From positions 1 to 45,172 of the forward strand of contig NZ_WBKP01000030.1 in the NCBI RefSeq assembly GCF_009602465.1: a stretch of 45,172 nucleotides of DNA, given 5' to 3'. The position numbers were made by a program, and so were the translations under genes. The stretch is from Cumulibacter manganitolerans. GTDB lineage: Bacteria > Actinomycetota > Actinomycetes > Mycobacteriales > Antricoccaceae. Below the pieces are notes generated by a model that was not told the DNA's origin, did no database searches, and saw only the letters and a program-made list of their open reading frames with translations. Each line of letters begins with the position of its first letter. Position 1 is the first letter of the stretch. Below, piece after piece: positions 4,213 to 28,516 of this stretch.

Positions 4213-7200
4213 GTGACGGCGACCCTGCATCGGATCGGCGCTGGCGACGGGTATCGCTACTACACAGCGATGGTCGCCAGTGCGGATGAGCGCCGTGAGC
4301 CCGGCGAGCGGCTCGGTGACTATTACGTGCGCAGCGGTAACCCGGCCGGCGTGTGGATGGGCGCCGGGCTGACGGCGCTCGGGGTGTCTGGTGAGGTGCG
4401 TGAGCAGCAGCTGGCGAACCTGCTCGGACTCGGCCTGCACCCCGACACGGGCGAGCAGCTGGGTTCGCGGTACCGGCTCTTCGCGACCGTGGACGAGCGG
4501 ATCGCGGCACGGCTGGCGAAGATGGGCCCGCTGTCCCCCGCCGACGAGGCCGCCGTACGGGCGGAGGAAGAACGCAAGGGTGAGCGGCAGGCGGTCGCCG
4601 GGTTCGACAGCACCTTCTCCCCCGTCAAGAGCGTGTCCGTCGCCTGGGCCTTAGCGACTCCCGCGGTCGCCGCGCAGATCGAGGCGGCCCACGAGGCCGC
4701 CGTCGCGAGCACGCTGGCGTGGATCGAGCGTGAGGCGATCACCGCCCGCACCGGCGCCGACGGCATCGGGCACGTGAACGTGAGCGGGCTGATCGCGGCG
4801 GCGTTCACGCACCGCACCAGCCGCGCCGGCGACCCGGACCTGCACACCCACCTGGTGATGTCGAACAAGGCCCTTGCGACGCTGCCGGACGGGTCGCAGC
4901 GGTGGCTGACCCTGGACTCCCGCGGCCTGTACAAGGCGAACGTGGCGTTCAGTGAGCGGTACAACCGGGTCCTGGAGGACGAGCTGCACACCCGGCTCGG
5001 GTGGACGTTCGCGGTCCGCTCGGACCAGCCGGCGGACGCGGTCGCGCCGATCCGCGAGCTCGCGCAGATACCGGAGCCGCTGATTGTCGCGTTCAGCCAG
5101 CGGCGCCAGCAGATCGAGACCGACTACGCCGCCCGGGTACGCGACTACCGCAACGCGCATGGGCATGAGCCGCCGAAGGCGGTGCAGTACGAGCTGGCGC
5201 AGACCGCCTGTCTGGCGCAGCGGCCGGAGAAGGACACCGGCAGCACCGAGGCGAGCGAACGCGCGGAATGGGAACGGGTCGCCGCGAACATCCTCACCCC
5301 CGCAGAACGCGCGCAGCTGGCGGCGGACCTGGCGCCCGGCACCCCAGGGAGGACCGTGGACCGCCTGGGTGAGGCGGAGATCGCGCGGATCGCCGGCGAG
5401 GTGGTGGCCGAGCTGCAGGAGCGCCGCTCGGACTGGACCGAACGGCACATCGCCGCCGCCGCGCAGCGGCACACCGCGACCATCCACCTCCCCTCCCCGC
5501 ACGCCCGTGACGAGCTGATCGCCGCCATCACGACGGCCGCGGGGCGCCTCGAGGACGTTATCGAGGTCTCCGCACCCGAGCGCGTCCGCACGCCGGCCGA
5601 GCTGAGGCGCGCGGACGGTGCCCCGATCTGGGAAGCACCCGCCTCGCGCCGCTCCTCCACCCGCACCCTGCTGGCGGCGGAGGCGCGGCTGCTGGACGCC
5701 GCCCGCGAGCACACCCCCGCCCGGCTCCCGGGGGCCTCGGTGAGCCTGGTGCTGGGTGATCACGACCTGGCGAGAGACCAGCTCGCGGTGGTGCGGCAGC
5801 TCGTCTCGGGCGAGCGGCGCGTGCAGCTGCTCGTCGGGCCCGCGGGCACCGGGAAGACCACGACCATGAGAGCGCTGGTGGACGTGTGGCAGCGCGCCGG
5901 TGGCCGGCCCGTGCGCGGCCTCGCCCCCACCGCGGCTGCGGCGTCGGTGCTGCGCACCGAGACCGGGATGGACCAGGCCGCCACCATCGACTACTGGGCC
6001 ACGCTGCGGCGCGCCGGCCAGCCGGCCGCGCAGTTCCAGCGCGGCGAGCTCGTCATCGTGGACGAGGCCGGCATGGCCGGCACGCTGAATCTGGACCGCG
6101 TGGTGCAGGCCGCGAGGCGGGACGGCGCGCACGTGGTGCTGGTCGGTGACCCGCGGCAGCTGGCCGCGATCGCCTCCGGCGGTGGGCTGCGGCTGATCCA
6201 GAACGAGGTCGGCGCCGCGCAGCTGTCCACGGTGTGGCGGTTCGCCGACGTCGACCCGGTGACGGGGAAGCGGGTGCTGCGGGAGTGGGAGGCCGAGGCC
6301 AGCCTCGGGTTGCGGGCCGGGGACGCCGAGGCCGTCGAGGCGTACGTGGAGCACGACCGGGTCCGCTCCGGTAGCCGGGAGGCGATGCTTGAGGACATCT
6401 ACATCGCCTGGCAGCGCGACCAGGCCGGTGACGTGGAGTCGGTCATGATCGCCCCCGACAACCAGACCGTGCAGGCACTGTCTGACCGGGCGCGCGCGGA
6501 CCGGATCGCCGCTGGCCAGGTCGCCGGCCCGGGCGTGGGACTGCGTAACGGCAGCCGGGCCAGCGTCGGGGACATCATCGTCACCCGCCGCAACGACCGC
6601 ACGCTGCGGGTCGGCGGGGACTTCGTGAAGAACGGCGACCTTTGGAGGATCACCGGCCTCGGGTCGGACGGCGCCCTGGCGGTCACCGGGCGGCATGGGG
6701 TGTGCGTGCTGCCGGTCGGGTACGTGCAGGCGAACGTCGAGCTCGGGTACGCGATGACCGCGCACCGCGCCCAAGGCCTCACCGTCGACCACGTGCACGC
6801 CCTGGTCGATGACACTCTCACCCGCGAGGTGCTGTACGTCGCGGCCACGCGCGGGCGGTGCCGTAACCAGCTCTACACGGTCACCGAGCACCTGCTCGAT
6901 GCCGAGGCCGAACGCCCCGCGGACCCGAACCAGCCCGCGCGGGCGGTGCTGCGCGCGGTGCTGGAGCGCTCGGATGCGGCGGTGTCGGCGACCGAGTCCA
7001 TTCGCGAGGAAGACGAGCGGGCCGCCAGCATCACCACCCAGCTCCAGCGATGGCGGTACGTGCGCGAGCACGCCGGCACCGACGACGCCCTCCTCGACGT
7101 GGCGCTGCCGGCGCACGTCGCGGCCGACGTGCGCGGTGACGAGGCGTGGCCTTACCTGCGCGAGGTCCTGCACTGGCGCGGTGACCAGGCCGTCGAGGAC

Positions 7201-8340
7201 CTGCGCCGCGCCTACCAGTCCCGCACCCTCGCCGGCGCCGACTCCCCCGCCCGCGTGCTCGCCGCCCGCCTGGAGGCGCAGGAACACCCCACTACGGAAA
7301 TCTACGGCGAGTGGCTGCCCGCCGGCGGGGTCGACGCGTACAGCGACGCCCTCCTCGCCGCCGCACGCGACCGCGCCGCCGAGCTCGGTGCCCGCGCAGC
7401 CGTCGAGCAGCCAGCCTGGTCCAGGCAGCTGGGGCCGATGCCGACAGAGCCGGCCGAGCGTGAGGAGTGGCAGCAGCGCGCGGGGATGATCGCGGCGTAC
7501 CGCGAGGCACACGACGTGACCTCGCGCGAACCGCTCGGCCCGGCGCCGGCGGACCCCCTCGGCCGCGAGCGGTGGGAGCGGGCCCGCACGGCCCTGACGG
7601 TGCCGGACGAAGCCGCGGCGACTGCTGATCGACGACCGTACGGAGACCTCACCATCAAGGACCTGCAAACCCAGCTGATCGACGCCCAGCGTTACGCCGA
7701 GCGGGCCGCACGCCGGTTGGAGGCGGCGCGTGCGGCGCAGCAGGCGACCAACGCGGGCGACGAGGGGCCGCGCACGCGGCGCGTCGACAGTGACGTCGCG
7801 ACGTGGACGGCAACCCTGGAGCGGTTGGACCAGGCCGAGCAGCTAGCCGCAGTCGCTCGCCACGCCGAGGAGCAGGCAGCCGATGTCTCGACCCGGCTCG
7901 CGGAGCTCGAAGCACACTCGCCGCGGCGCCGCGACCGTGAGCGGTGGCCACAGGACGTGGCCGCGGCACGAGCCGAGTGGGACGAGGCGCAGCAGCGTGC
8001 TCAGGAGGCCACGGCCCAGGCCGCGCAAGGTGCCGCCGGCTTGCCCCAACCGCGTCAGTGGCCCCAGATGCGCGAGCATGCCCGTGCAGGGCTGCAAGAC
8101 GCCGCCGCGCGGCGCGAGCAGGCCGTCTCGGAGGATCAGGACGAACGCGAGCAGATCACCGCGAGCCTCCCGAACCTGGCGCGCCAGGTCGCGACATTCC
8201 AGAAGCAGCGCCAAGACCTACGCGCCGAGCTCGAGCGGCGTCCCAGCAGTGATGCTGCGGAGGCCGCGACGTATCTGCGGGAGGGTTTAGATGACCCACG
8301 GCGCCAGATCGAGCGTCGTCATGACCGTGAATACGGCTAG
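4213..8340 (+). CDS. MOBF-type conjugative relaxase-helicase (TraA/TrwC-like)
   Basis: This 1375-residue protein nicks oriT and unwinds the transferred strand in conjugation. The N-terminal TrwC relaxase domain (about 1-290) has tyrosines near the start (YRYY, residues 14-17; DYY, 36-38). It also has the metal-binding histidine motif HRTSRAGDPDLHTHL, with His200, 211 and 213. A RecD/TraI-type helicase follows: Walker A GPAGTGKTTT near residue 541, Walker B VIVDEAGM near 613, and the late motif YAMTAHRAQGLTVDH near 845. The last 230 residues or so are an Arg/Glu/Ala-rich coiled coil, duplicated in the remnant at 22771-23550. GTG at 4213 is the first in-frame start and brings in the whole relaxase fold. 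The gene appears intact. No coupling protein or type IV secretion genes lie in the window. Confidence 0.95.
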   Translation: MTATLHRIGAGDGYRYYTAMVASADERREPGERLGDYYVRSGNPAGVWMGAGLTALGVSGEVREQQLANLLGLGLHPDTGEQLGSRYRLFATVDERIAARLAKMGPLSPADEAAVRAEEERKGERQAVAGFDSTFSPVKSVSVAWALATPAVAAQIEAAHEAAVASTLAWIEREAITARTGADGIGHVNVSGLIAAAFTHRTSRAGDPDLHTHLVMSNKALATLPDGSQRWLTLDSRGLYKANVAFSERYNRVLEDELHTRLGWTFAVRSDQPADAVAPIRELAQIPEPLIVAFSQRRQQIETDYAARVRDYRNAHGHEPPKAVQYELAQTACLAQRPEKDTGSTEASERAEWERVAANILTPAERAQLAADLAPGTPGRTVDRLGEAEIARIAGEVVAELQERRSDWTERHIAAAAQRHTATIHLPSPHARDELIAAITTAAGRLEDVIEVSAPERVRTPAELRRADGAPIWEAPASRRSSTRTLLAAEARLLDAAREHTPARLPGASVSLVLGDHDLARDQLAVVRQLVSGERRVQLLVGPAGTGKTTTMRALVDVWQRAGGRPVRGLAPTAAAASVLRTETGMDQAATIDYWATLRRAGQPAAQFQRGELVIVDEAGMAGTLNLDRVVQAARRDGAHVVLVGDPRQLAAIASGGGLRLIQNEVGAAQLSTVWRFADVDPVTGKRVLREWEAEASLGLRAGDAEAVEAYVEHDRVRSGSREAMLEDIYIAWQRDQAGDVESVMIAPDNQTVQALSDRARADRIAAGQVAGPGVGLRNGSRASVGDIIVTRRNDRTLRVGGDFVKNGDLWRITGLGSDGALAVTGRHGVCVLPVGYVQANVELGYAMTAHRAQGLTVDHVHALVDDTLTREVLYVAATRGRCRNQLYTVTEHLLDAEAERPADPNQPARAVLRAVLERSDAAVSATESIREEDERAASITTQLQRWRYVREHAGTDDALLDVALPAHVAADVRGDEAWPYLREVLHWRGDQAVEDLRRAYQSRTLAGADSPARVLAARLEAQEHPTTEIYGEWLPAGGVDAYSDALLAAARDRAAELGARAAVEQPAWSRQLGPMPTEPAEREEWQQRAGMIAAYREAHDVTSREPLGPAPADPLGRERWERARTALTVPDEAAATADRRPYGDLTIKDLQTQLIDAQRYAERAARRLEAARAAQQATNAGDEGPRTRRVDSDVATWTATLERLDQAEQLAAVARHAEEQAADVSTRLAELEAHSPRRRDRERWPQDVAAARAEWDEAQQRAQEATAQAAQGAAGLPQPRQWPQMREHARAGLQDAAARREQAVSEDQDEREQITASLPNLARQVATFQKQRQDLRAELERRPSSDAAEAATYLREGLDDPRRQIERRHDREYG

Positions 8341-8685: not shown

Positions 8686-10352
8686 CCTCGATGTTTCACG
8701 AGGTCGGTTGTTGAGCTGTTGTCTGGCTGTGCGGGCTGGGTCGTGCCTTGGGCGTGGGTGATGGCCGGCGCTGGTATCGCCGGTTCTCCGTGGTCCTCGT
8801 TGGTGGGACAGGGGCTGGCTGTTCAAGCGGTCCGGAGCGTGTTCCAGCCGCGATCGATGAGGTGGTTCCAGGGCCAGTCGCGTGGCAGGCGCAGATGTCT
8901 TCGTCGCCCGGTGCGAATGATCCGCCCGGCCACGGTGAACAGGCGGAAACGTAGTCGTTTGGGTTCCCAGCGGCGCGCCGGGTGACGGGTGTCGAAGGCG
9001 AGTGTCTGCATCCAGGCCAGCAGGTCGGCGGCGAGGGCGATGACTTCGAGCCAGAGCCTGTTCTTGGCGTACTGGTGAAAGGGCAGGTTCTGTAGCCCGG
9101 CGTCTTTGAGGGCGCGGATGCGGTCCTCGCAGCGGGCGCGTTGGCGGTGTCTGACCTCCAGCAACGGCAGGCTCCAGCCGCGGCCGGTGGTGTTGGTGGC
9201 GAAACAGGTGATCCGCCAGCCGTTGTGGTCGGTCAGGCGCAGCTGCGCGCCGGGGTGGGGCCGTTCACGGCGGGCGATGACCCGCATGCCGGCCGGCCAC
9301 CGCTTCGGGCCCGGCCGGGATGCGCGGTCGTGGTTGATCGGTGCCGGCATCCACGCGGTGAGCTCGGCGACCTGGGCATCGGCACGCGGCTGCCCGTCGC
9401 CGTCGATCGCCGCGCGCCAGGCTTGCTCGGGGATCACCGCGATCGCGGACGCGACGGTGTCTTGGGCGGTGAACCCGATCGAGTACTCCAGGCCCAGATC
9501 GGTGACGTGGTGCAGGAACGCCTTCGAGCAGGCGCCGGTATCGGCACGCACCAGCACCTGCGCCCGCTCGCCGTCGGGCAGCTGGGCCAGGGCGTTGTCC
9601 AGCGTCGTGATGTGATCGGCGCTGATCCACGGCGAGGCCTTCCCCGGCCGCAGGTCCAACGCGAGGGGTTCGCCGGTGCCGTGCTCGCCGTGGTCGACGA
9701 AGCTGCACATCGGCGCGAACCCGAACCCGCGTTTGAAGGTCGGCTCGGCGCCTTCCTTGTCCGAATGCGCGCCGACCAGCGTGGCATCGATGTCGACGAT
9801 CACCTGGCCACCGGCCCGCGTGCCGGGCACGCCGGCCAGCGGCCGGCGCCGGGCCCACACCACCGCGCGGGCATCGGCACGAGCGGTACGAATAGCGCTG
9901 ACCGCGGCATCGACATCACCAGCCAGAGCGGCGAACACGCGGCACACCGTCGGGTCGGACGCGACCGCGCCGAACACCTCCGGCTGAGCCCGCAACGCCG
10001 CGATGTCTGCCAGGCAGTCCCCACCGAGCGCGACCGCGACAGCGACATCGAGCAGGACCTTGCCCGGCTCGTGGATCGCCCGCGCCGGGCGCCACGGCGC
10101 CAGCGCCCGAGACAGGCCCCGATCCAGGCCAGCGACCCGGACCACCTCGTTGATCAGCAGCGCCCCTGAGGAGGAAATCAACGACTCGCGGACAGGATCA
10201 AGAACCAGACTCGGAACACGGCTACGCTTCACCTACGGAGTGCCTCTCTGCGTGAGGGAACTTGAGCTTTAGCAACCCAAGAATCCCGCGCCAGATAGGC
10301 ACTTCCGTGCTTTACACGCCGCACTCAACCCCGACGACGTGAAATCCCGAGG
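8686..10352 (-). mobile_element. IS1380-family insertion sequence, complete
   Basis: The 1667-bp element is bounded by imperfect inverted repeats. The left end reads CCTCGATGTTTCACGAGGTC; the right end, reverse-complemented, reads CCTCGGGATTTCACGTCGTC. Both ends are flanked by CTAG. It carries one transposase gene on the minus strand. Intact ends, a perfect target duplication and an uninterrupted transposase point to a fairly recent insertion. Confidence 0.9.
8823..10232 (-). CDS. IS1380-family DDE transposase
   Basis: The 469-residue transposase moves the surrounding element. Features seen include VIVDIDATLVGAHSDKEGAEPTFKRGFGFAPM (first catalytic Asp region in a D-x-D-A-T-L pattern), VLVRADTGACSKAFLHHV (second Asp) and a C-terminal ENR-type signature replaced here by CEDRIRALKDAGLQNLPFHQYAKNRLW, which carries the Glu and is typical of IS1380 proteins. 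Length is normal and the frame is uninterrupted. The start chosen is the in-frame start at 10232, giving MKRSRVPSLVLDPVRESLISSSG, a common N-terminus for actinobacterial members. Confidence 0.9.
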   Translation of the reverse strand: MKRSRVPSLVLDPVRESLISSSGALLINEVVRVAGLDRGLSRALAPWRPARAIHEPGKVLLDVAVAVALGGDCLADIAALRAQPEVFGAVASDPTVCRVFAALAGDVDAAVSAIRTARADARAVVWARRRPLAGVPGTRAGGQVIVDIDATLVGAHSDKEGAEPTFKRGFGFAPMCSFVDHGEHGTGEPLALDLRPGKASPWISADHITTLDNALAQLPDGERAQVLVRADTGACSKAFLHHVTDLGLEYSIGFTAQDTVASAIAVIPEQAWRAAIDGDGQPRADAQVAELTAWMPAPINHDRASRPGPKRWPAGMRVIARRERPHPGAQLRLTDHNGWRITCFATNTTGRGWSLPLLEVRHRQRARCEDRIRALKDAGLQNLPFHQYAKNRLWLEVIALAADLLAWMQTLAFDTRHPARRWEPKRLRFRLFTVAGRIIRTGRRRHLRLPRDWPWNHLIDRGWNTLRTA

Positions 10353-10356: not shown

Positions 10357-10484
10357 CGGCGTGGGTGCGGCAGCTCAACGACACGTTCCAGGCTGGCGGT
10401 CATGCACCCGTCGACCCGGGACCGATGGCGCCGCACACCCACGCCGACGGGACCGTGCACAGCCACCGATAGCGAATCGGTGCG

Positions 10485-11193
10485 CCGCGCGCGTGCTCGT
10501 CTTCTCCCCTGACGCTGGCTGCCGAAGGTGGCGCGCACCAGTCGATCAAGACACCGTCGATCGGTATCGACCAACCGTCTTGCACGGCGTACGAGCCCGC
10601 TTTCGCCATCGAGGTCGAGTGGTGCCTTCTCGCGGCCCTGGACAAGCTCGATCGTCCGGCGGTGAGTCGGCCTACTTCCGGCTGTCAACGCGACCGGTAG
10701 ACCAGGGCCTAGCTGCCCTGCCCTCCGATGAGGCGGCCCCCGAACATCGCCGCCAACACGTGCTCTCTGGTGCTTATGCCATTCGGCGCACACTCGCGCC
10801 CCCCACGTGCGACGATCTGCGCAGTAGGGGCGATGGTCCCCAACGCTCTGGAGGCGGCGGAAACGTTAGCCGATACGGGCATCGACGTGGACGTGATCGT
10901 CGTGACGAGCGCGGATCTTCTCTACCGGGCACTTCGGGGCCCGAACGGGGCGCGGTGCCGCGACGAACGTGGGCGTCCTGGACGCGGTGTTCCCGGCCGA
11001 TCGCGCGGCCCCGATGGTCACGTTGCTCGATGGTCATCCGCACGCTCTGAGCTTCATGGCGGAGATCAACCGGGTTCGCGCCATCCATCTTGGAGTGGTG
11101 CAGTTCGGCCAGTCAGGTGAGCTCGACGCGGTGTACGCCCATCACGGCCTCGATGCAATTTCGGTGGCTAACGCCGTGCGCGACCTTCTATAG
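10485..11193 (+). pseudogene. Pyruvate dehydrogenase E1 (AceE-like) C-terminal relic
   Basis: Fragments in several frames line up with the last third of the homodimeric pyruvate dehydrogenase E1 family. From 10509 onward one reads LTLAAEGGAHQSIKTPSIG and CTAYEPAFAIEVEWCLLAALDKL. After a frame change come ESAYFRLSTRPVDQGLAALPSDEA, then VGAMVPNALEAAETLADTG and VVTSADLLYRALRG. The last part is VFPADRAAPMVTLLDGHPHALSFMAEIN ... VQFGQSGELDAVYAHHGLDA, ending at a TAG. At least three frameshifts break it and the thiamine-diphosphate domains upstream are absent, so it is dead. Confidence 0.75.
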
Positions 11194-11253
11194 GCTCAGT
11201 CCGGGCGATCGCGAGCCATTTCCGCATCCAGGGAACTCTGCTGGCCGCCATCG

Positions 11254-11574
11254 GTGGCACCGACGAGACCTCGATGCTCTGCGGTAACCGCCCTGCGTCA
11301 GCGAGTCTCGTTCTACCGAAGTACGCCGGCGTACAGCGGCGTCCTGACGCACCACGGCTGGGAGGACCTCGGGCGAGACCTCAACGCTATGTCGAAGTCG
11401 GATGACCCGAAGCGCCGGGAAAAGATGGCCGCGATCGTCCCGGAGAAAGTCCTGAACACAATCGGCATCATCGGAACCACGGACGAGGTTCACGCGCTGT
11501 TGCAACGCCGGTTTGTAGGGATCGTTGACCGCCTGCGTTGCGATTCTCTGCTCGGGCTCGCAGGTCCAGTCTGA
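11254..11574 (+). pseudogene. Luciferase-like (LLM class) monooxygenase C-terminal relic
   Basis: From about 11281 the frame reads ALRQRVSFYRSTPAYSGVLTHHGWEDLGRDLNAMS, then VPEKVLNTIGIIGTTDEVHALLQRRFVGIVDRL. That is the C-terminal part of the F420/flavin-dependent luciferase-like oxidoreductases (the VSFYASTPAYRPVLE ... pattern). The N-terminal three quarters of the barrel is missing, and the preceding sequence does not match. It follows the E1 relic directly, so this stretch is a junction of several truncated genes. Confidence 0.65.
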
Positions 11575-11716
11575 TCTCAACTGCCGTCCGGAACAATGCA
11601 CTCGTGCCGGGATCGGCACCACCAGGAAGACCGGGCCGAGCAGCCGGGACTATTAGGTTCTCTGCTGCCGCTCAGGACCGTCCGAGCGACAGCTGGCCTC
11701 CATCGCCAGATAGCGG

Positions 11717-12985
11717 CTATTTCTCGTACGGGGCCTTGTACTTCTTGGCCTCCTCGGACGCCTTCAGGTCGCCGACCTTCGTGAGCCCACCCTCGACGTT
11801 CTCGTCAAGCTGGAGGACGTAGCTTTCGCGAGTGGTCGGTGCGCCCGGCTCCGATACGTCGATCGTGCCGGACAGCCCGTCGGCGTCGATCTTGCCGAGG
11901 TTTTCGAGGGCCGTGTGAACGCCGCCGCGGGTGAGGTCGCCGCTCGTACATGCGTGCTCAAGGATCGACTGCCAGAGCATGCCACTCAGGTAGCCTGCGA
12001 ACACCTTCGGCGATGGCGGATCGGTGACGTTCATGGCTGCGTACGCTGCGCGCACCTTTTCCGCCGACGGGGTCTCGATCGTCCATGGCGGTGTCGAGGT
12101 CGACACGTAGTAGATGTCCTTCAACGCCGATAAGGTCTCAGCGTTCGCGAGCATCGTCGGGGCGAACGTCGGCGAGCCGCCTACGAGCGGTACGTCGAGC
12201 CCTTGGGATTTCATCTGCACAGCGAGGGAGGTAGTCGCGGCCGAGGAGGCGCCCGTATAGACGACCTTCACGCCGGCGGATTTCAACTTCGTGACCAGCG
12301 CGGTCATGTCGGTGTCATTGGCCCCAATCGCGCTCTCTACGACCTGCATATCGTGCTGTTTGGCGAATGCCTTGGCCCCGCTCAGCATGTTCTGGCCGGC
12401 TTCGTTGTCGATATAGACGGCGCCGAACGTGTTGCCGTCTTTGAGAGTCCCCTTCTCAAACTGGTACGAGAGCCCGTTGATTGCTTCGATGTCGTACGGC
12501 GCGGTCACCGAGATTAGCGACTTCGTATCGAGGCTGTTTGAGGCGACGGACTGGACCGTGGTCAGCATCTGGTCGCTGTCGATCTTGGTCTTGATCGCGG
12601 CCAGGACTGGGGTACCCAAGAGCTGGATCAGTCCCAGGTCCTTATTCCGCATGATCTCGTACTGTGGCACGGCATTATCGGCCTTGTAGCCATGGTCCTG
12701 GATATCGAGAGCGATCTTGCGCCCACATACACCACCGGCCTTGTTCACCTCGTCGAGCCAGATCTGATGTCCAGTGTTGAATGCGAGACCACCGGACTTG
12801 AAGGGACCCGACAGGTCAGAAAGGACTCCGAGGGTGATTGTGTCGTCGGTGACGCCGACTCCTGTTTTGACCGATCCCGCTTCGCCGCTCGAGTCTGACC
12901 CGCTCTGGGCCTTCGTTGAGCAGCCGACGAGAGCGAGCCCGATCGAGCCGATCACGAGGCTACGGGTCCACGTCTGCTTCTGCAT
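11717..12985 (-). CDS. Branched-chain amino acid/carboxylate-type ABC transporter solute-binding lipoprotein
   Basis: A 422-residue periplasmic-binding protein of the LivK type. A signal peptide ends in the lipobox LVGC (Cys at residue 22), so the protein is tethered outside the membrane. The body has the family opening GVTDDTITLGVLSDLSGPFKSGG and later AINGLSYQFEKGTLKDGNTFGAVYIDNEAGQNM. Such proteins bind amino acids, aromatic acids or other small carboxylates. It is the last gene of the minus-strand catabolic operon of block A, 131 bases below the thiolase-like gene, and has a strong AGGAGA ribosome site. No permease genes lie next to it, so it may feed the Liv importer at 23605-27041 or a permease elsewhere. 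Confidence 0.9.
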   Translation of the reverse strand: MQKQTWTRSLVIGSIGLALVGCSTKAQSGSDSSGEAGSVKTGVGVTDDTITLGVLSDLSGPFKSGGLAFNTGHQIWLDEVNKAGGVCGRKIALDIQDHGYKADNAVPQYEIMRNKDLGLIQLLGTPVLAAIKTKIDSDQMLTTVQSVASNSLDTKSLISVTAPYDIEAINGLSYQFEKGTLKDGNTFGAVYIDNEAGQNMLSGAKAFAKQHDMQVVESAIGANDTDMTALVTKLKSAGVKVVYTGASSAATTSLAVQMKSQGLDVPLVGGSPTFAPTMLANAETLSALKDIYYVSTSTPPWTIETPSAEKVRAAYAAMNVTDPPSPKVFAGYLSGMLWQSILEHACTSGDLTRGGVHTALENLGKIDADGLSGTIDVSEPGAPTTRESYVLQLDENVEGGLTKVGDLKASEEAKKYKAPYEK

Positions 12986-13116: not shown

Positions 13117-14271
13117 TTATCGCCCGGGAGCGGCCAGGACATGCGCCAGGCACACCGCGCCCAGTCCGACAAGATGGGCGAGCCCGTAAATCGCGTCCGG
13201 CTGCTGGCGCGCTCCCGATTCGCCGCGCAGCTGCTTTGTAATCTCGACGATCTGGCCGACGCCGGTCGGGCCGATCGGATGACCCATTGCCAGCAGTCCA
13301 CCCGACGGACTGACCGCTACTCTGCCGCCGATCGCGAACTCGCCGTCCCGGAGACGATGCGGGGCCTGACCCTCCGGGCATAGCCCCATCGCTTCGATGT
13401 ACTGCAGTTCTTCGATCGCGAAGGCGTCATGCAGTTCGACAACGTCCAGCTGATCTGGGCGGATACCGGCGTCCTGCAGAGCATCGGCGGTGGTCAACCG
13501 GGTCAGCTCCGCATCGTAGCTTCTGGTTCCATAGAGTTCCTCGGAGTGCTGCGCCGTCGACAGCACTCGAACGGCCCGATCTCGCGAAATGCCCAATCTG
13601 TCGAGGGCCTCCCCGGATACGAGGATCGCTGCGGCAGCACCTTCGCCGACCGGGCAGCATTCCAGGCGGGTCAGCACGCCCGCGATCGGACGGTCCTCGA
13701 CGATCTCTTCGAGAGAACGCTCCTTTTGCCGCTGTGCGAACGGATTCTTGGCCCCGTTCGCATGGTTCTTCACAGCGACCCGCGCCATGTCCTCGGTCGT
13801 CGCATTGCACGTCCGGAGGTACTCCTCAGCCAGCAACGCGAAGTGGATCGGGGGGACAACGACTCCCTCGTCGTACCCGTGTACGCCGGTCAGCGTCTCC
13901 GCTCGGACGCCGGGGGCAACCTTATCGACGCCCGACGCAAGTGCCACGTCGGCGAATCCTGCGGCGACGTCGCGTACCGCGAGCCGGAATGCCGAGGATC
14001 CGGACGCCGAGGCGTTCTCCACCTGCGTGGTAGGAATGCCGGTCACTCCGAGGTGGCGCAGGATAGGCTGAGAGACCGCCATCCCGAGCCGCGTCGAGCT
14101 GGTGTACGCGGCCTCGACCTCTGTCCACGCAATCCCGGCATCCGTCAGCGCGGCCCGGATCGCGGACAAGGCTAGGTCCACGAAGCTGGTTTCGGTGGCT
14201 CGCTGGTAGCGATGGAGCCCGACGCCCACGACATAAACGGGCCGTAGTTCGCTTAGCTTGATGACGCTCAC
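13117..14271 (-). CDS. SCP-x/Ltp2-type thiolase-like protein, probable retro-aldolase
   Basis: A 384-residue thiolase-fold protein of the SCP2/lipid-transfer group. The position that normally holds the nucleophilic Cys (ENACASG) reads ENASASG here, with Ser88. The HDAF motif (His281), GHPIGPTG (His331) and a late Cys374 remain. Its GTG start overlaps the stop of an upstream DUF35 gene by four bases. Thiolase-like proteins paired with DUF35 partners, such as Ltp2 with ChsH2 in steroid side-chain degradation, act as aldolases that cleave beta-hydroxyacyl-CoA rather than as thiolases. By that analogy it would split the product of the hydratase in this cluster. Ordinary thiolase activity is unlikely without the Cys, but this is inference. 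Confidence 0.8.
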   Translation of the reverse strand: MSVIKLSELRPVYVVGVGLHRYQRATETSFVDLALSAIRAALTDAGIAWTEVEAAYTSSTRLGMAVSQPILRHLGVTGIPTTQVENASASGSSAFRLAVRDVAAGFADVALASGVDKVAPGVRAETLTGVHGYDEGVVVPPIHFALLAEEYLRTCNATTEDMARVAVKNHANGAKNPFAQRQKERSLEEIVEDRPIAGVLTRLECCPVGEGAAAAILVSGEALDRLGISRDRAVRVLSTAQHSEELYGTRSYDAELTRLTTADALQDAGIRPDQLDVVELHDAFAIEELQYIEAMGLCPEGQAPHRLRDGEFAIGGRVAVSPSGGLLAMGHPIGPTGVGQIVEITKQLRGESGARQQPDAIYGLAHLVGLGAVCLAHVLAAPGR

Positions 14272-14612
14272 GCGATCTCCTTGGAATCATCGGCAATGAA
14301 CTGCACCACGTCGTCGCCGGTCACCTCGGCAACGACCGGCACGCCAGCGGGAAGATCGCCGTCCAGGCGGGCGCGCACGACCGGCCCATCGCTCAGATGC
14401 ACACTGCCGATCACCAGCGGAGCGGCGATCGCACTGTTTGGGTGCTGGTAGACGGTGACAGCCGCGAGCAATAGTCCGTGCGGATTGAGTTCTACGACGG
14501 GAAGGTCGTCGCCGTGCGCCCCGCACTGCAGACAGCCGAACGTCTGGGCCGGTACCGAGACAAAACCGCAGACGCGGCAATGAACGCCTCGTAGTGAACG
14601 AGCCTTACCCAT
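14268..14612 (-). CDS. DUF35 OB-fold protein with zinc ribbon, partner of the thiolase-like protein
   Basis: A 114-residue protein. The N-terminus has a four-cysteine zinc ribbon (HCRVCGFVSVPAQTFGCLQCGAHG, two CxxC pairs). The remainder is an OB-fold (ELNPHGLLLAAVTVYQH ... PLVIGSVHLSDGPVVRARLDG) typical of DUF35. Such proteins bind next to thiolase-like subunits and are needed for their activity or stability. GGAGG lies five bases before the ATG. The gene overlaps the thiolase-like gene by four bases, implying co-translation of an obligate complex. It is 78 bases below the CaiB-family gene in the same operon. Confidence 0.88.
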   Translation of the reverse strand: MGKARSLRGVHCRVCGFVSVPAQTFGCLQCGAHGDDLPVVELNPHGLLLAAVTVYQHPNSAIAAPLVIGSVHLSDGPVVRARLDGDLPAGVPVVAEVTGDDVVQFIADDSKEIA

Positions 14613-14690: not shown

Positions 14691-15737
14691 TCATAGCAAA
14701 GGGGTTGCTCGCACCCGAACGGGAAAGCGCAGAAACGGCCCAAGGGCCGACTCGTGGTCGACAAGCACGGGGTCGGTGTCGGCCAGTGCCTCGCGTGGTG
14801 AACGGATGACGGACGCCGGCACACCCGCCGCATTCAGGACGCTCAGGACCTCCTCCGAGTCACATCGCGCAAGTACCGTCGCGATTGCAGAGTTGATGCG
14901 GGGTGCCGCTGCCCTTCGGTCTTGCGACGTCGTCCACTCGGGTCCGTCCCATTCGCGCAGCTCGAGGGCATCAACCAACGCGGCCCAGAAGTGGTCCTCG
15001 AGCGCAGCGATGGCGACCAGAACCCCGTCGCGACAGCTGAACACGCCGTACGCCGCACGCACCAGGGCAGCGGACCGTTGACTGTCGAGATCGACGAGCC
15101 CAGCGGCATAGAAGTCGCCGAGCCTGGGGTTAAGCCAGTGCGCGAGGCTGCCCCGGATACTGATGTCAAGATGAGCACCTCGACCCGTGCTTTGGGCGCG
15201 CAGTAATGCGGCCAGTATTCCCGACAGCCCGTACGCAGAGGCGGCGAGGTCGGCTACCGGAACACCGGGTCCCCACGTCGGCGACTGCCCAGGGACTCCC
15301 GCCAGAGCGAGCACGCCGGCGTCTGCCGCGTAGGTGATGTCATGCCCAGGCAGGTTGCGTTTCGGCCCGGTACTGCCGAAGCCGGACAGCGAGGCATAGA
15401 CGAGCCCCGGGTGCTCTGCGCACAGTCGCTCGGGCCCGAGCCCGAACCGGGACATCACCTCGGGCCGAAAGCCCTCGACGAGAACGTCCGCGCCACGTAC
15501 TAGGTCGCGGGCTGCCGCCTTGCCGTCCTCAGACTTCAGATCGAGCCGGAGTGCCTGCTTGCCCCGGTTGCAGGCCGCGTGCAGGCCGGGCGCCATGGCA
15601 CGTGCCGGATCGCCACCCGGCCGCTCGACCTTGATCACCGTAGCTCCGAGCTCGACGAGATTCTGGGTGAGGAATGGTCCGGGCAGCAGCTCGCTGAAGT
15701 CGACCACTCGGACGCCGGCTAGCGGCTCATCGCTCAT
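14691..15737 (-). CDS. CaiB/BaiF family III CoA-transferase or alpha-methylacyl-CoA racemase
   Basis: A 348-residue protein with the family start LAGVRVVDFSELLPGPFLTQNLVELGATVIKVERPGGD. It has GHDITY (His132), like GHDINY in alpha-methylacyl-CoA racemases, and PVADLAAS with Asp163, which lines up with the catalytic Asp of both racemases and CoA-transferases. The length is at the short, racemase-like end of the family. The racemase reading would suit a methyl-branched acyl-CoA substrate; the transferase reading would load CoA onto the substrate. The start ATG overlaps the stop of the synthetase gene upstream (ATGA), so it is in the same operon. The sequence alone does not decide between the two activities. 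Confidence 0.85.
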   Translation of the reverse strand: MSDEPLAGVRVVDFSELLPGPFLTQNLVELGATVIKVERPGGDPARAMAPGLHAACNRGKQALRLDLKSEDGKAAARDLVRGADVLVEGFRPEVMSRFGLGPERLCAEHPGLVYASLSGFGSTGPKRNLPGHDITYAADAGVLALAGVPGQSPTWGPGVPVADLAASAYGLSGILAALLRAQSTGRGAHLDISIRGSLAHWLNPRLGDFYAAGLVDLDSQRSAALVRAAYGVFSCRDGVLVAIAALEDHFWAALVDALELREWDGPEWTTSQDRRAAAPRINSAIATVLARCDSEEVLSVLNAAGVPASVIRSPREALADTDPVLVDHESALGPFLRFPVRVRATPLL

Positions 15738-18075: not shown

Positions 18076-18687
18076 ATGCTGACACAACAACAGCGCGCAG
18101 ATGCAGCGCGCAGGTCCATCCTCGACGCAACGATTCGGGTGCTCGCCAACGAGGGATACCGCCGCGCCACGTTCACCCGTATCCAGGATGTCGCGGGCAT
18201 GAGCCGCGGGCTGATCGGCTACCACTTCGGGAATAAGCAAGCCCTCATCGAAGCCGTGGTGCAGGCACTCCGTGACAATTATCATGACGAGACCGCCGCC
18301 GCGACAGCGCAGGCGGCGACCGGACGCGAGGAACTTGAAACCCTCGTCGAGACCTACCTGTCACGACTCGGCGATGATTCGGGCCCTGCCCAGGTGATGC
18401 TCGTCCTCGGGGTCGAGTCCATTAACGAACATCCCGGAATGCGAGATGCCGTGCGAGCAGCGTACGCCGCACTGCGGGCGGATATCGTCCGTATGGTCGA
18501 GCGAGGGCTCGGCGACGGTTCGATCGTGGATGAACAAGAGCCGAAGGCGATCGCCGGGCTCGTCGAGGCGGTTCTGCGCGGAACGGTGCTGCAGTATCTC
18601 GTAGACGCCGACGCGTTCGACCTCGTTGCAGCCCGGCGGGCTGCAATGGCAGTCGTCCGGTGCCTCGCCCAACCGAGTACTACTTGA
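18076..18687 (+). CDS. TetR-family regulator of the acyl-CoA catabolic genes
   Basis: The 203-residue regulator has a clear N-terminal helix-turn-helix (RRSILDATIRVLANEGYRRATFTRIQDVAGMSRGLIGYHFGNKQALIEAVV). A ligand-binding C-terminal domain follows. The ATG at 18076 was chosen because residues before it (in an upstream in-frame extension) are not TetR-like and have no better ribosome site. It diverges from the synthetase operon and converges with the acyl-CoA dehydrogenase gene, overlapping its end by eight bases. The two matching palindromes at 17931 and 19869 suggest that it represses both arms of block A. Regulators in this setting often respond to the acyl-CoA made by the pathway, but the ligand here is unknown. 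Confidence 0.9.
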   Translation: MLTQQQRADAARRSILDATIRVLANEGYRRATFTRIQDVAGMSRGLIGYHFGNKQALIEAVVQALRDNYHDETAAATAQAATGREELETLVETYLSRLGDDSGPAQVMLVLGVESINEHPGMRDAVRAAYAALRADIVRMVERGLGDGSIVDEQEPKAIAGLVEAVLRGTVLQYLVDADAFDLVAARRAAMAVVRCLAQPSTT

Positions 18688-19825
18688 TGGCCGACAGGCC
18701 GAGGATCTCGCGGCCGACGACCAGCGTCTGGACCTCGGTCGTCCCCTCAGGAATGCTCGCCCCGCGGGTATCACGAAACAGGCGCTCGATCGGATACTCA
18801 GTCGAGTAGCCCATGGCGCCGTGAACCGCGACCGCCGCATCCGCGATTTCGTGCGCGACGCTGCACGTGTAGTACTTGGCAATCGAGGTCTCCAAGCGCC
18901 CCGAGTCACCGCGGTCTAGGGTCTCCGCGGCATTCAGGCACAACGCGCGTGCCGCGTCGAGTTTGGCGCGCATCTCGACGATGTGCGCCTGCACGAGCTG
19001 GAAAGAGCCTATGGGTCTCCCGAACTGGTGGCGGGTCTTCGCGTATTCCACCGACAGGTCGTACGCGCGACGAGCCGCGCCCAACGCACCCATCGCGACA
19101 TTGATGCGGGCCACGCCGAGGAACACCAACGTGTTCTTCAATGCCGCACCTTCGTCACCGAGAAGATTGCCTGCAGGGACCTTGCAGTCGCGGAAGGTCA
19201 GCTCACCGGTGCCGCTGGACTGCAGGACCATGGTGTCGACTCGACCCGCGTCGAACGGAGACACCGCCTTGTCCACCAGGAAGGCCGAGAGCTCGCCGGC
19301 ACACGTCGGGCTGAAGGTGCGCGCGATCACCACTCCCCATTCGCCCCAGGCGCCGTTCGAGATCCAGAGCTTCTGGCCATTGATAACCCACTGGGTGCCG
19401 TCCCAGTCGGCCCGCGTCTTGATTTCCGCCACATTCGAGCCGACGTCGGGCTCGGTGATGGCGTTGAACACCTTGGCCTCGCCAGCAAGCAGCGGCGGCA
19501 GATACTTGTCGCGCACGTCCGGCTGCGCCTCAACGAGCCGGTCGATCGGCCCGTTAGTGATGTTGATCATCGTGCGCAGCGACGGCCACCAGTAGCCGAG
19601 CTCCTCCATCATCAACGCCCAGGTCACTCGATCGATCCCGAGGCCCCCGCGCGCTTCGGGCAACCAGCCCCCGATATAGCCGAACTCCGCCAGCCGCGGC
19701 AGCAGCTCGAATGGAAAAGTCTTGTTTCGCTCGTGCTCGGCGACGATCGGGTCGATCTCCGCCTTGCAGAATCCGCGGATGCTCGCTAGAAGGTCGCGCC
19801 TTTCCGCTGTCTCGTGAATGCTCAT
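18680..19825 (-). CDS. Acyl-CoA dehydrogenase
   Basis: A 381-residue FAD enzyme that forms the alpha,beta double bond of an acyl-CoA. Family segments are FNAITEPDVGSNVAEIKTRADWDGTQWVINGQKLWISNGAWGEW and RHQFGRPIGSFQLVQ. The C-terminal IPEGTTEVQ carries the catalytic Glu360 in the usual YEGT place. Length and motifs are normal. It is divergently transcribed from the SDR-hydratase operon, and operator-like palindrome 2 lies between the two. The substrate preference cannot be read from the sequence; the neighbours suggest an unusual or branched acyl chain. Confidence 0.92.
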   Translation of the reverse strand: MSIHETAERRDLLASIRGFCKAEIDPIVAEHERNKTFPFELLPRLAEFGYIGGWLPEARGGLGIDRVTWALMMEELGYWWPSLRTMINITNGPIDRLVEAQPDVRDKYLPPLLAGEAKVFNAITEPDVGSNVAEIKTRADWDGTQWVINGQKLWISNGAWGEWGVVIARTFSPTCAGELSAFLVDKAVSPFDAGRVDTMVLQSSGTGELTFRDCKVPAGNLLGDEGAALKNTLVFLGVARINVAMGALGAARRAYDLSVEYAKTRHQFGRPIGSFQLVQAHIVEMRAKLDAARALCLNAAETLDRGDSGRLETSIAKYYTCSVAHEIADAAVAVHGAMGYSTEYPIERLFRDTRGASIPEGTTEVQTLVVGREILGLSAIK

Positions 19826-19924: not shown

Positions 19925-20713
19925 ATGCAGGACCTACTGGATCTCAAGGGGCGTACGGCCTACATCACCGGCGCCGGCCAAGGAGTCGGCCGCCGAGTAG
20001 CGCTCCATTTCGCAGACCACGGTGCCGGCGCAGTGATCATCAACGACTTCCGCCTGGAACGCGCCCAGGCCGTCGCCGAAGAGGTCCGTGCCACGGGCGC
20101 TAAGGCTTTGGCCGTCTCCGGTGACGTCTCCGACTTTGACGGTGTCGCTGCCTCGGTGAAGACAGCGATCGACGAGTTCGGCGGCATCGACATCCTCGTC
20201 AACAACGCCGGAAACGCCGGCCCAAACCCGACCGACGCGATGGATCGCCCGTTCTGGGAACAGCAGCCGTCCGAGTGGCAGGGCTACCTGGGGACCAACC
20301 TTTACGGCGTACTCAACACCGTCCACGCCGTCGTCCCCGCCATGATCAAGCGTAGGTACGGCCGCATCGTCAATGTGATCTCGGACGCCGCCCGCTTCGG
20401 TGAACCGAACCGGGAGTGCTACGCCGCCGGCAAGGCCGGCACAGCCGGTTTCACCCGGTCCCTGGCTGCGACCGTCGGCAGGTACACCATCACGGCGAAC
20501 TGCGTGTCGCTGGCCGCTACCCGGACCCCTCGCACAGAGGATAAGTTCACCGACGAGGCCGCGATGAAGAAGTTGCTGTCGCATTACATCATTCGTCGCA
20601 GCGGTGAGCCCGAGGACGCCGCGAACATGATTCTGATGCTGGCATCCGATGCGTCGTCGTGGGTCACCGGTCAGGTCATGCCGGTGAACGGCGGCTACTC
20701 GTTCGCGCTGTGA
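19925..20713 (+). CDS. Short-chain dehydrogenase/reductase, probable 3-hydroxyacyl-CoA dehydrogenase
   Basis: A 262-residue classical SDR. It has the cofactor motif TGAGQGVG, the NNAG motif (ILVNNAGNAG), a Ser in NVISDAARFG and the catalytic YAAGK. These enzymes oxidise hydroxyl groups with NAD(P). In this operon the likely job is oxidation of a hydroxyacyl-CoA, though if the thiolase-like protein is an aldolase the SDR may act on another step. The ATG at 19925 has GAGGAG upstream; an earlier in-frame start has no such site. Its stop overlaps the hydratase start by four bases (GTGA). Confidence 0.88.
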   Translation: MQDLLDLKGRTAYITGAGQGVGRRVALHFADHGAGAVIINDFRLERAQAVAEEVRATGAKALAVSGDVSDFDGVAASVKTAIDEFGGIDILVNNAGNAGPNPTDAMDRPFWEQQPSEWQGYLGTNLYGVLNTVHAVVPAMIKRRYGRIVNVISDAARFGEPNRECYAAGKAGTAGFTRSLAATVGRYTITANCVSLAATRTPRTEDKFTDEAAMKKLLSHYIIRRSGEPEDAANMILMLASDASSWVTGQVMPVNGGYSFAL

Positions 20714-21507
20714 ACACCAATGCGACGACGTCGTCGGCAGACGACGTCGTACTGCAGGATATTCGAGGCGAGGTCGGCATTGTCACGCTCAACCGACCTT
20801 CACAGAGAAACGCGCTCAACCTCGCATTGCGCACGGCGATGCAGCACGCTTTGGAAGCGATGGACGCCGACCCACGGGTCCTCGCCGTCGTTCTCACCGG
20901 CGCCGGCGGCAACTTCTGTGCCGGACGGGACCTAAAGGCTGCTCGCGATGGTGAGCCGATGTACGCGACCCGAGATGACGCGCAGAAGTCGTTCAATCGG
21001 TCATCGATACGCAAGCCGGTCATTGCCGCCATCGAGGGCTACGCGCTCGCCGGAGGACTTGAGCTTGCGCTTTCTTGTGACTTACTGATTGCCTCCCGTG
21101 AGGCGAAGTTTGGACTTCCCGAGGCGAAGCGCAACCTGGTGGCAATCGGCGGCGGGTTGATCCGGTTGCCGCGACGGATGCCTTACCACGTGGTCATGGA
21201 GATGGCATTGCTGGGTGATCACGTATCCGCTGACGAGCTATACCGCTTCGGCGTCCTAAATCGACTGGTCGATCCGGGAGCAGCGATCGAGAATGCAGTG
21301 GCGCTCGGCGAGCAGATCGCCGCGAGTGGACCATCGGCGGTCCGCGCGACGAAGCAGATCCTACGGCGTAACACCGAATGGACATCTGAGGCGACGGCTT
21401 TCGACGCACAACTAGCGATGGCCGAGCCAGCGTTGAACTCACCGGACAGCAAAGAAGGCATCGCGGCATTTATCGAGAGGCGCGCTCCGCGGTGGACCGA
21501 CCGATGA
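20710..21507 (+). CDS. Enoyl-CoA hydratase/isomerase family protein
   Basis: A 265-residue crotonase-fold protein. Signatures are GIVTLNRPSQRNALN and LTGAGGNFCAGRDLKAARDG (oxyanion hole), AIEGYALAGGLELALSCDLLIAS and the FGLPEAKRNLVAIGGG segment. The usual catalytic Glu pair is partly visible (Glu at FGLPEAK), but the second position needs an alignment. Hydration of a double bond made by the neighbouring dehydrogenase is the obvious role. GTG at 20710 is chosen because it couples to the SDR stop; further upstream the frame lies inside the SDR. The stop at 21505-21507 is followed two bases later by insertion-sequence debris. Confidence 0.88.
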   Translation: MNTNATTSSADDVVLQDIRGEVGIVTLNRPSQRNALNLALRTAMQHALEAMDADPRVLAVVLTGAGGNFCAGRDLKAARDGEPMYATRDDAQKSFNRSSIRKPVIAAIEGYALAGGLELALSCDLLIASREAKFGLPEAKRNLVAIGGGLIRLPRRMPYHVVMEMALLGDHVSADELYRFGVLNRLVDPGAAIENAVALGEQIAASGPSAVRATKQILRRNTEWTSEATAFDAQLAMAEPALNSPDSKEGIAAFIERRAPRWTDR

Positions 21508-21508
21508 C

Positions 21509-21572
21509 TGAATCGCCCCCGACAGCAGCCGCTGCCGGGAGAACTCGCCTCCACTAAACCCGGGGCGATTCA
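21509..21572 (+). mobile_element. 64-bp internally deleted IS3-type relic (MITE-like)
   Basis: It begins TGAATCGCCCC and ends GGGGCGATTCA, an 11-bp perfect inverted repeat. The inside of the right part is the same, except one missing C, as the 3' end of the IS3 element at 34840-34893. The middle of the element (orfA and nearly all of orfB) has been deleted. The same left-end sequence is missing from the larger copy at 33960-34893, so the two pieces complement each other. The first three bases outside it on the left are GAC, the same as the three bases outside the right end of the larger copy. Confidence 0.7.
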
Positions 21573-22414
21573 CAGTGTTGCATCTCGAAGGCCACGGGGC
21601 TGATCTGGCCTATCGAGGAGTGCCGTCTGCGGCGGTTGTAGCGGTCCTCGATCCAGGCCCCGACCTCCCGCTTGGCTCGGGTCTTGGTGGGCCAGACCCG
21701 TCGGTAGTAGAACTCGGTCTTCAGCGTCGCGAAGAATGACTCGGCCATCGCGTTGTCCCAACAGATCCCGGTCAATCCCATCGAGCGGGTGATGCCGTTC
21801 TCGCTCGCGTACTTCGTGATCTGCGCCGAGGCGTATTGCGTGCCCCTGTCGGTGTGGAACACGACCGTGGCGGGCAGCTCACCGCGCAGCGTGATCGCCA
21901 TCTTCAACGCGTCCTCGACCAGGTCGGTGCGCATGTGCTCGTCGATCGCCCAGCCGATCACCCGACGCGAGTGCGCGTCGATCACGGTGGCCAGATAGAG
22001 CCAGCCTTCCCACGTCCTCAAGTACGTGATGTCGCCGACCCAGACGGCGTTGAGGACACCGGTGTCCCACTGACGCTTGGCGGCGTCGACCGGGTAGGTA
22101 TCGGCGGGGTCCGTGATCGTGGTCGTGCGCCACTTCTTGGGGCAGATCCCGCGTAAACCGAGCTTGCGCATCGTCTTGGCGACCGTCTTGCGTGAGATCA
22201 CCTCACCGTCCTCGCGCAGGTCGGCCAGGATCCTCGGGGACCCCGACACCTCGTCGGACTCGCCGTGGAACCAGGTGATCTTCGCCTCGATCCGCTCCGC
22301 TCGGACCGCCCGGGGCGAGGGCGCACGCTTGCACCAGGCGTAGAAGCCCGAGCGGGAGACCTCAAGCAGTCGGGCCATCCGCGCCACGCTGTAGTTGCTC
22401 TTCTCCACCAGCAT
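21554..22414 (-). CDS. IS3-family OrfB transposase (copy A), 3' end altered
   Basis: A 286-residue integrase-core (rve) transposase. The DDE residues are visible in VGDITYL, HTDRGTQYAS and NAMAESFFATLKTE. The N-terminal HTH_21 region (SVARMARLLEVSRSGFYAWCKRAP) is intact. The last codons and the stop lie inside the neighbouring MITE-like relic, so the true C-terminal few residues and the right inverted repeat of this IS are lost. It is normally produced as OrfAB by -1 frameshifting from orfA. Catalytic residues are present, but transposition of this copy is doubtful without its second end. Confidence 0.85.
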   Translation of the reverse strand: MLVEKSNYSVARMARLLEVSRSGFYAWCKRAPSPRAVRAERIEAKITWFHGESDEVSGSPRILADLREDGEVISRKTVAKTMRKLGLRGICPKKWRTTTITDPADTYPVDAAKRQWDTGVLNAVWVGDITYLRTWEGWLYLATVIDAHSRRVIGWAIDEHMRTDLVEDALKMAITLRGELPATVVFHTDRGTQYASAQITKYASENGITRSMGLTGICWDNAMAESFFATLKTEFYYRRVWPTKTRAKREVGAWIEDRYNRRRRHSSIGQISPVAFEMQHCESPRV

Positions 22415-23604: not shown

Positions 23605-24312
23605 CTAAACACCGAGATAGGCGTGGATGACCTTGTCATCGGCGAGCACAGTCTCCGGAGGACCTTCTAGGGTGAGGTTTCCTCCTTCGAGGACGACAAC
23701 GCGGGTCGCGCACCGGGCGGGGACCAGAAGGTTCTGCTCTACGAGCAAGATCGTGGTCGATGTGCCGATCTCGGCGATTGTGTCGGCGACTTGCTCGATG
23801 ATGATAGGGGCCAGGCCCTGGGAGGGCTCATCAAGCATCAACACCTGGGGCTCGGTCAGCAAGGCCCGTCCGATAGCCAGCATTTGCCGTTCGCCACCAG
23901 AAAGAGTGCCGGCCATTTGCTGACGCCGTTCACCGAGCCTCGGGAAGAGACCGATCACCGAGTCAATCTTCGTTGATACGGAGCGGTTGCTTCGGTTTAC
24001 CGCCCGGGCGCCTAGTTCTAAGTTCTCCAAGACTGACATTGCCGGGAATGAGAGCTGCCCTTCGGGAACGAGCGCTAAGCCACGACGCACTCGCTGGTGC
24101 GCGGACTGATGCGTGACGTCGTGGCCATCGAGCTTGATCACCCCTGCGGTCGGGGTTAGGAGGCCGGCCAGAGTCCTTAGAAGGGTCGACTTGCCGACAC
24201 CGTTCGAGCCCAGGACTGCAAGTACCTCGCCGGGTTCCACGCTGAGGTTGATGCCATGCAGTACCTGCCGTTGGCCATACCCTGCGATGAGGCCCTCAAC
24301 GAGTAGGCTCAT
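23605..24312 (-). CDS. livF: LivF-type ABC transporter ATPase
   Basis: A 235-residue ATPase of the branched-chain amino acid (HAAT) importer family. Walker A is GSNGVGKST, the signature LSGGERQ, and Walker B VLMLDEPSQGLAP; the GLAP ending and short length mark it as LivF rather than LivG. It overlaps livG by 17 bases and ends the importer operon. It powers uptake with LivG, LivH, LivM and a binding protein. Confidence 0.92.
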   Translation of the reverse strand: MSLLVEGLIAGYGQRQVLHGINLSVEPGEVLAVLGSNGVGKSTLLRTLAGLLTPTAGVIKLDGHDVTHQSAHQRVRRGLALVPEGQLSFPAMSVLENLELGARAVNRSNRSVSTKIDSVIGLFPRLGERRQQMAGTLSGGERQMLAIGRALLTEPQVLMLDEPSQGLAPIIIEQVADTIAEIGTSTTILLVEQNLLVPARCATRVVVLEGGNLTLEGPPETVLADDKVIHAYLGV

Positions 24313-27041: not shown

Positions 27042-27091
27042 GGTCTTACCTCATTGCCAGACGGGCCACTACCACCGGGGGGAGCATTTGG

Positions 27092-28285: not shown

Positions 28286-28359
28286 ATGACTCCTCAGGGA
28301 CCGTTGAAGATTCGGGATGAGTGAAATCTCGACCCCGGGTTGCGATGACTATAGGACGG

Positions 28360-28380: not shown

Positions 28381-28516
28381 TCTGTGTCAACTTTTCTAAG
28401 CAACCTATTTACGCCTCAGGAGGCGTCGATCCGGACCGTCAGCGTCCTGCTTATGCAGCCAGCTTCCCGGGCTGCTTCGAGCGTTGAGTCCATATATGCA
28501 GAGGATTGGGGCCTCC

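Follow-up and report, generated by a model that had tools for sequence, protein, structure and literature searches.

A clade of DUF35-linked thiolase-like proteins with serine at the cysteine nucleophile position: candidate retro-Claisen enzymes of a beta-oxidation-like module

A nucleophilic cysteine is generally considered the hallmark of thiolases. SCP2-thiolase type 1 (6hsj, 6hrv) carries this cysteine and a second one within an HDCF motif, and BbsB, the thiolase-like half of the benzoylsuccinyl-CoA thiolase BbsAB (7pxp), uses a Cys nucleophile next to a DUF35 partner. BbsAB acts in anaerobic toluene degradation via benzylsuccinate (bbs), whose genes encode a CoA-transferase, an acyl-CoA dehydrogenase, a hydratase, an SDR and the thiolase, the same operon logic as in the module described below. 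The aldolases Ltp2-ChsH2 (6ok1) and Sal-Shy (9myr) likewise join a thiolase fold to a DUF35 partner and lack the nucleophilic Cys; according to PMC12329534, the base of Ltp2 is Tyr294 of YDHF and its acid is Tyr344, and in Sal these roles fall to Tyr302 and Cys304 in YDCY. Where thiolases have their Cys, Sal has Gly. Serine at the nucleophile site is described for the priming ketosynthase DpsC, which has a Ser-His-Asp triad in a thiolase fold and self-acylates (PMC12664062). Engineered Cys88Ser was inactive in PhlC of two species, according to PMC6392133 and PMC12955522, so Ser is not automatically competent and a natural clade bearing it must have adapted or work otherwise. A solved Cys-to-Ser variant of the Leishmania SCP2-thiolase (3zbl) appeared in our fold search, and ibuprofen IpfD/IpfE and phdB/phdC may be similar pairs. 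We found no description of a Ser variant among DUF35-linked thiolases in the open-licence literature.

The window analyzed here is the whole 45,172-nucleotide contig NZ_WBKP01000030.1 of Cumulibacter manganitolerans, in which a thiolase-like/DUF35 pair lies among the following genes, several with relatives at a Pseudonocardia locus (L007):

11717..12985, minus strand: branched-chain amino acid type substrate-binding protein (Peripla_BP_6, E 8.3e-49), adjoining the module
13117..14271, minus strand: Ser88 thiolase-like protein, 384 aa, GTG start; ENASASG at 85-91, HDAF at 281-284, GHP at 330-332
14268..14612, minus strand: DUF35 partner (zinc ribbon CxxC-x11-CxxC plus OB fold), 114 aa, ATG start; weak in Pfam, E 7.8e-7 to the DUF35 protein of 6esq
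14691..15737, minus strand: CaiB/BaiF family III CoA-transferase, 348 aa (Pfam CoA_transf_3, E 3.9e-90); 52% identical relative in L007
15734..17890, minus strand: NDP-forming acyl-CoA ligase (acetate--CoA ligase family), 718 aa; 54% identical relative in L007
18022..18687, plus strand: TetR regulator, 221 aa; TetR genes recur next to the module
18680..19825, minus strand: acyl-CoA dehydrogenase, 381 aa; 62% identical relative in L007
19871..20713, plus strand: SDR, 3-hydroxyacyl-CoA dehydrogenase-like; YxxxK intact, with PDB matches
20659..21507, plus strand: enoyl-CoA hydratase family protein; Glu at both positions where hydratases have it

The pair thus sits in an apparent acyl-CoA chain-shortening module, in agreement with the acyl-chain shortening proposed by the first-pass annotation. 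The two best PDB matches of the window SDR are a (3R)-hydroxyacyl-CoA dehydrogenase (1.2e-46) and BbsD (6.8e-44), and since general FabG-type reductases and hydroxysteroid dehydrogenases match almost as well, its substrate can only be suggested. The substrate-binding protein possibly serves uptake of the module's substrate, judging from its position.

A DDE transposase (8823-10232) lies on one side of the module and an IS3 transposase (21554-22414) on the other; by visual inspection, the large ORF at 4213-8340 is relaxase-like and ParA-like proteins are also close, which makes the module probably mobile or plasmid-borne. Several relatives are on plasmids. The stretch from 10361 to 11622 appears to be gene debris, with one frame (10728-11120) resembling a transketolase C terminus (E 3.1e-7) and another (11254-11574) weakly similar to luciferase-like monooxygenases (E 1.3e-3, below cut-off). 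A second acyl-CoA cluster lies at 23605-33898. By eye, it has a TetR gene and genes for a Liv-type ABC transporter; it also encodes an AMP-forming ligase and a biotin carboxylase/carboxyltransferase that is a single chain of 1093 aa.

The Pfam Thiolase_N and Thiolase_C models match the thiolase-like protein (Thiolase_C_1, E 9.9e-30), and its top solved relatives by sequence are zebrafish SCP2-thiolase (E 4.4e-63), BbsB (1.1e-56) and an archaeal acetoacetyl-CoA thiolase (6.2e-49); among the best 25 of 48 NCBIfam families, none scored above its cut-off. HMMER alignment to solved structures pairs Ser88, in the middle of ENASASG, with the catalytic Cys of 6hsj (SCP2-thiolase, NNNCSTG) and with that of BbsB (QSACSAG), bearing out the first-pass claim that it replaces the acyl-accepting Cys. 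HDAF lies at the site of the SCP2-thiolase HDCF, and GHP is intact. The possibility, raised at the same time, that the nucleophile sits at Cys374 or Cys205-206 instead did not survive alignment. Cys205 is invariant across Cys- and Ser-enzymes together (alignments of 22 rows and 13 rows), position 206 is Cys or Thr, and position 374 is Cys, Ser, Ala or Gly within the Ser clade; because Cys205 is common to the Cys-enzymes and the other two are not conserved, we rejected all three as alternative nucleophiles.

The DUF35 gene ends and the thiolase-like gene starts within a shared GTGA, so the overlap on which translational coupling had been proposed is real. At 26.8 bits, the partner scores weakly and falls just short of the Pfam DUF35 cut-off (27.1), and in NCBIfam a single family matched, below cut-off; its assignment is nevertheless supported by its best match, at E 7.8e-7, to 6esq_E, the DUF35 subunit in the thiolase/HMG-CoA synthase complex of archaea.

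The predicted monomer of the Ser88 protein, modeled from 13 input sequences and without the DUF35 partner, reached a pLDDT of 82.2 and a pTM of 0.88, with residues 121-139, 194-203 and 246-251 under 50. Among the families that it listed, a fold search with this monomer gave Z scores of 52.2 for SCP2-thiolase, 51.5 for a Pyrococcus thiolase, 51.4 for BbsB and 51.1 for acetoacetyl-CoA thiolase, but only 42.8 for Ltp2 and 41.4 for Sal, and together with the alignment this speaks against the Ltp2-like reading first given to the protein.

Ser88, HDAF and GHPxGP are common to all 18 members of the clade that we assembled, counting the window protein, and Ser88, His281, Ala283 and His331 are identical throughout, at 39-77% identity to the window protein and pairwise identities as low as 37%. 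This recurrence led us to reject a sequencing or annotation accident as the source of Ser88. The members include Actinobacteria, Alphaproteobacteria and Betaproteobacteria, among them Pseudonocardia kujensis (77% identical to the window protein) and Bradyrhizobium (57%), and plasmid copies 49-54% identical are found in Sulfitobacter, Pseudosulfitobacter, Roseomonas, Comamonas and Variovorax; the plasmid records examined label the key gene just "thiolase family protein". The clade is rare, with matches below the E-value limits in 3/396 genomes of the window's phylum and in 4/289, 2/297 and 4/299 genomes of further sets, the centre genome included each time. Members were chosen by E-value limits in whole genomes (1e-85, 1e-120 and 1e-95), a plasmid search and a genome-contig scan, so Cys-bearing intermediates could be missed; in the plasmid search, identity steps from 50.5% to 41.5% among the matches listed (30 of 217 records). 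Loci fetched repeatedly, such as L008/L032/L052, L053/L056, L054/L057 and L055/L058, were counted once.

A 36-row tree holds 15 of the 18 Ser members (L053, L054 and L055, the last 39% identical to the window protein, were left out), and in it all 15 Ser rows form one side of a 100/100 branch with a stem of 1.01 changes per column. The Ser clade branches in this tree from the same fork as Cys-bearing enzymes that are likewise linked to DUF35, from Azospirillum, Salipiger, Novosphingobium and others. Several residues changed alongside Ser88, including 116 (Glu to Asp), 210 (Asp to Glu), 335 (Ala to Pro) and 287 (to Glu). Ala283 is also present in 8 of the 13 Cys relatives compared, a set from which the Gly rows L003, L004, L011-L014 and L017 and the Cys row L016 were excluded. 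Judged from sequence, this is a Cys-less, Ser-bearing, DUF35-linked thiolase clade rather than an isolated oddity.

The gene context recurs as well. DUF35 is adjacent to the Ser enzyme in 17/18 loci, having been detected by its zinc motif in 13 of 15 scanned, by annotation and Pfam in L022 and by similarity in L029, L056 and L057; the stretch fetched around L058 contained none. An SDR and an enoyl-CoA hydratase are near the Ser enzyme in 14/18 loci, and an acyl-CoA ligase in the same number, where "near" refers to the sequence retrieved around each Ser enzyme, which for most loci reached some 8 to 12 kb in either direction. Within those stretches, SDR and hydratase are absent near L008, L020, L036 and L058, and no acyl-CoA ligase was found at L020, L023, L036 and L058. 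Pseudonocardia (L007) has the whole set of hydratase, SDR, acyl-CoA dehydrogenase, NDP-forming ligase, CaiB transferase, DUF35, Ser enzyme and TetR, and a common compact layout places ligase, SDR and hydratase divergent from DUF35 and Ser enzyme, with a TetR gene (L037, L038, L039, L045, L056 and L057). YxxxK of the SDR and the first Glu of the hydratase are kept in 13/13 loci compared and in the window, and the second Glu in 12/13 and the window, L029 being the exception. At L021-L024, the SDR shares only 32-37% identity with that of the window and may not be an orthologue. Transporter neighbors vary by locus (Liv-type, family 3 binding protein, NMT1-type, tripartite tricarboxylate, MFS), and Pfam found no ring-cleaving family among 40 neighbor proteins of L007, L008, L028, L038, L039 and L056. 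The nearest Cys relatives, 38-42% identical, show the DUF35-thiolase-SDR-hydratase layout in 4/6 annotated records (L025, L046, L047 and L051), with L048 lacking it and L050 having an SDR without an annotated hydratase; L049 carries no annotation and stands outside the six.

We propose, with a probability of roughly 0.55, that the pair is a DUF35-dependent retro-Claisen enzyme closing a beta-oxidation-like module, with Ser88 as the probable nucleophile. This reading draws on the position of Ser88 and its invariance, the intact histidines, an SDR that would form the keto group and the Ser precedent of DpsC; we infer the substrate class, the order of steps, the roles of single residues, the covalent part played by Ser and the nature of the acceptor. 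A carboxylic acid would be converted to its CoA thioester by the ligase or the CoA-transferase and desaturated where an acyl-CoA dehydrogenase is present, after which the crotonase-family hydratase would add water and the SDR would oxidize the product to a 3-oxoacyl-CoA, the substrate implied by the recurring SDR, as in the benzylsuccinate pathway. The DUF35/thiolase-like complex would then cleave the 3-oxoacyl-CoA in a retro-Claisen reaction, with DUF35 contributing to the shape of the substrate cleft, a role it has in the complexes of the steroid aldolases. Ser88, aided by His331 of GHP as base and with His281 keeping the oxyanion hole, would attack the 3-oxo group, so that the acyl-CoA enolate leaves and the other half is held as an acyl-serine ester, to be released by CoA (thiolysis) or by water (hydrolysis). 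Against this count the inactivity of engineered Cys88Ser in the two PhlC relatives, the absence of the second Cys of HDCF (HDAF), although BbsB and other Cys relatives have Ala there as well, the four loci at which no SDR and hydratase were found nearby, one of them (L058) also without DUF35, and the broad matches of the SDR. Only tentatively do we go further and suggest a natural serine thiolase, that is, a DUF35-dependent clade in at least two phyla, partly on plasmids, which would cleave 3-oxoacyl-CoA through an acyl-serine with a Ser-His pair.

The pair was originally read as a retro-aldolase, which we now regard as unlikely. On this reading the hydratase would make 3-hydroxyacyl-CoA for the pair to cleave directly, and the SDR would have a different task, such as converting the aldehyde or ketone set free. 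Several points favor it: Cys is lost next to a genuine DUF35 partner, as in Ltp2 and Sal, the chain-shortening context includes a hydratase, and Cys-to-Ser kills acyl transfer in engineered PhlC relatives (PMC6392133 and PMC12955522); four of the 18 loci also have no nearby SDR, though these lack the hydratase too. The retro-aldol step itself finds no support: in none of the 18 members does a Tyr stand at the HDxF position or replace GHP. Where Ltp2 and Sal have their YDxF/Y Tyr, the window protein has His281, and with GHP intact and Ala283 it has no counterpart of Tyr344 or Cys304; these replacements hold in 18/18. The Cys position is Ser and not Gly, whereas Ltp2, read through its alignment with L004, has Gly there and has lost GHP. 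Thiolases are nearer both by fold and by sequence, and the same layout is seen in Cys-bearing relatives. The SDR recurrent in 14/18 loci counts against the aldolase route because a hydratase and an aldolase would need no SDR. On sequence evidence, a retro-aldolase is not the best reading of the Ser88/DUF35 pair. Proteins of the Sal/Ltp2-type aldolase pattern were seen separately in the genome that contains the window: L004 (C8:100221-101324) and L003 (C7:23809-24882) have Gly at the Cys position with YDCY or YDSF, and L004 matches 4u4e (3.7e-66) and Ltp2 6ok1 (2.5e-61).

A hydrolytic retro-Claisen reaction without a covalent intermediate, in which Ser88 would position water and a 3-oxoacyl-CoA hydrolase would yield a free acid and acetyl-CoA, seems improbable to us. 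Hydrolytic retro-Claisen steps are known in the crotonase and amidohydrolase families, and both His are retained here. According to PMC6392133 and PMC12955522, Ser replaces Cys poorly in engineered relatives, which would suit such a role, but Ser88 lies exactly at the covalent-nucleophile site and, among the sequence features found, none favors water over CoA. An inactive pseudo-thiolase serving as scaffold for DUF35 or adjoining enzymes is very improbable, since the four residues Ser88, His281, Ala283 and His331 are fixed in 18/18, unlike the drift at the archaeal HMG-CoA synthase-linked thiolase for which a comparable loss is suggested.

The archaeal order to which the Methanomassiliicoccaceae MAG L011 belongs had a match in 99/120 genomes, and the Cys position was Gly in 25, Glu in 2, Asp in 2 and Ala in 1 of the best 30 of the 99 matches (loci L011-L014, L062 and L064-L092 were read), a sample leaning towards relatives of the Gly-bearing query. 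HDCF has drifted there as well, and by eye the thiolase follows an HMG-CoA synthase-like gene (L011-L014), with a DUF35-like ribbon gene next in L012-L014. An SCP2-type thiolase query gave no second match at E 1e-5 in the four MAGs L011-L014, whose completeness may be partial, and the source of acetoacetyl-CoA in archaea with a Cys-less mevalonate-complex thiolase becomes a question. We count the contrast between a drifting position in these archaea and a fixed one in the Ser clade in favor of a functional Ser88.

A conserved Ser clade that keeps both histidines and has co-changed residues (D116, E210, E287 and P335 among others) could reveal what it takes to adapt a thiolase pocket to an oxygen nucleophile, and the clade defines a catabolic module around the Ser enzyme. 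The retro-Claisen and aldolase readings predict different substrates and products. The serine thiolase suggested above may free its acid by hydrolysis, which would make it the thiolase-fold counterpart of serine hydrolases.

Compared with known systems, the window protein has its best sequence and fold match in SCP2-thiolase type 1 and keeps GHP and the HDxF His, but has Ser and HDAF where that enzyme has its two Cys, and is accompanied by DUF35; Ala at the second-Cys position is shared by the Ser clade with BbsB and other Cys relatives. Ltp2 and Sal have the catalytic Tyr and Gly where the window protein has His281 and Ser88. DpsC, compared here by literature description only (PMC12664062), is alike in its thiolase fold and in the triad Ser where FabH-like priming enzymes have Cys, but it belongs to a distant polyketide-biosynthesis family. 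BbsAB resembles the window pair in joining a thiolase-like protein to DUF35, in HDAF and GHP, and in 34% identity over the aligned fold (Z 51.4), and its genes resemble those of the window and L007 in placing a CoA-transferase, an acyl-CoA dehydrogenase, a hydratase and an SDR near the pair. It differs in its Cys nucleophile, the window has a single CaiB gene plus a separate acyl-CoA ligase, and the window proteins fall short of the NCBIfam cut-offs for BbsB (221.1 vs 750 bits) and BbsA (25.2 vs 250 bits). The Ser clade probably works most like a BbsAB-type thiolase. We nevertheless class it neither with the SCP2 thiolases nor with the BbsAB equivalogs or Ltp2/Sal aldolases, because for each of these a feature that defines it was looked for and not seen.
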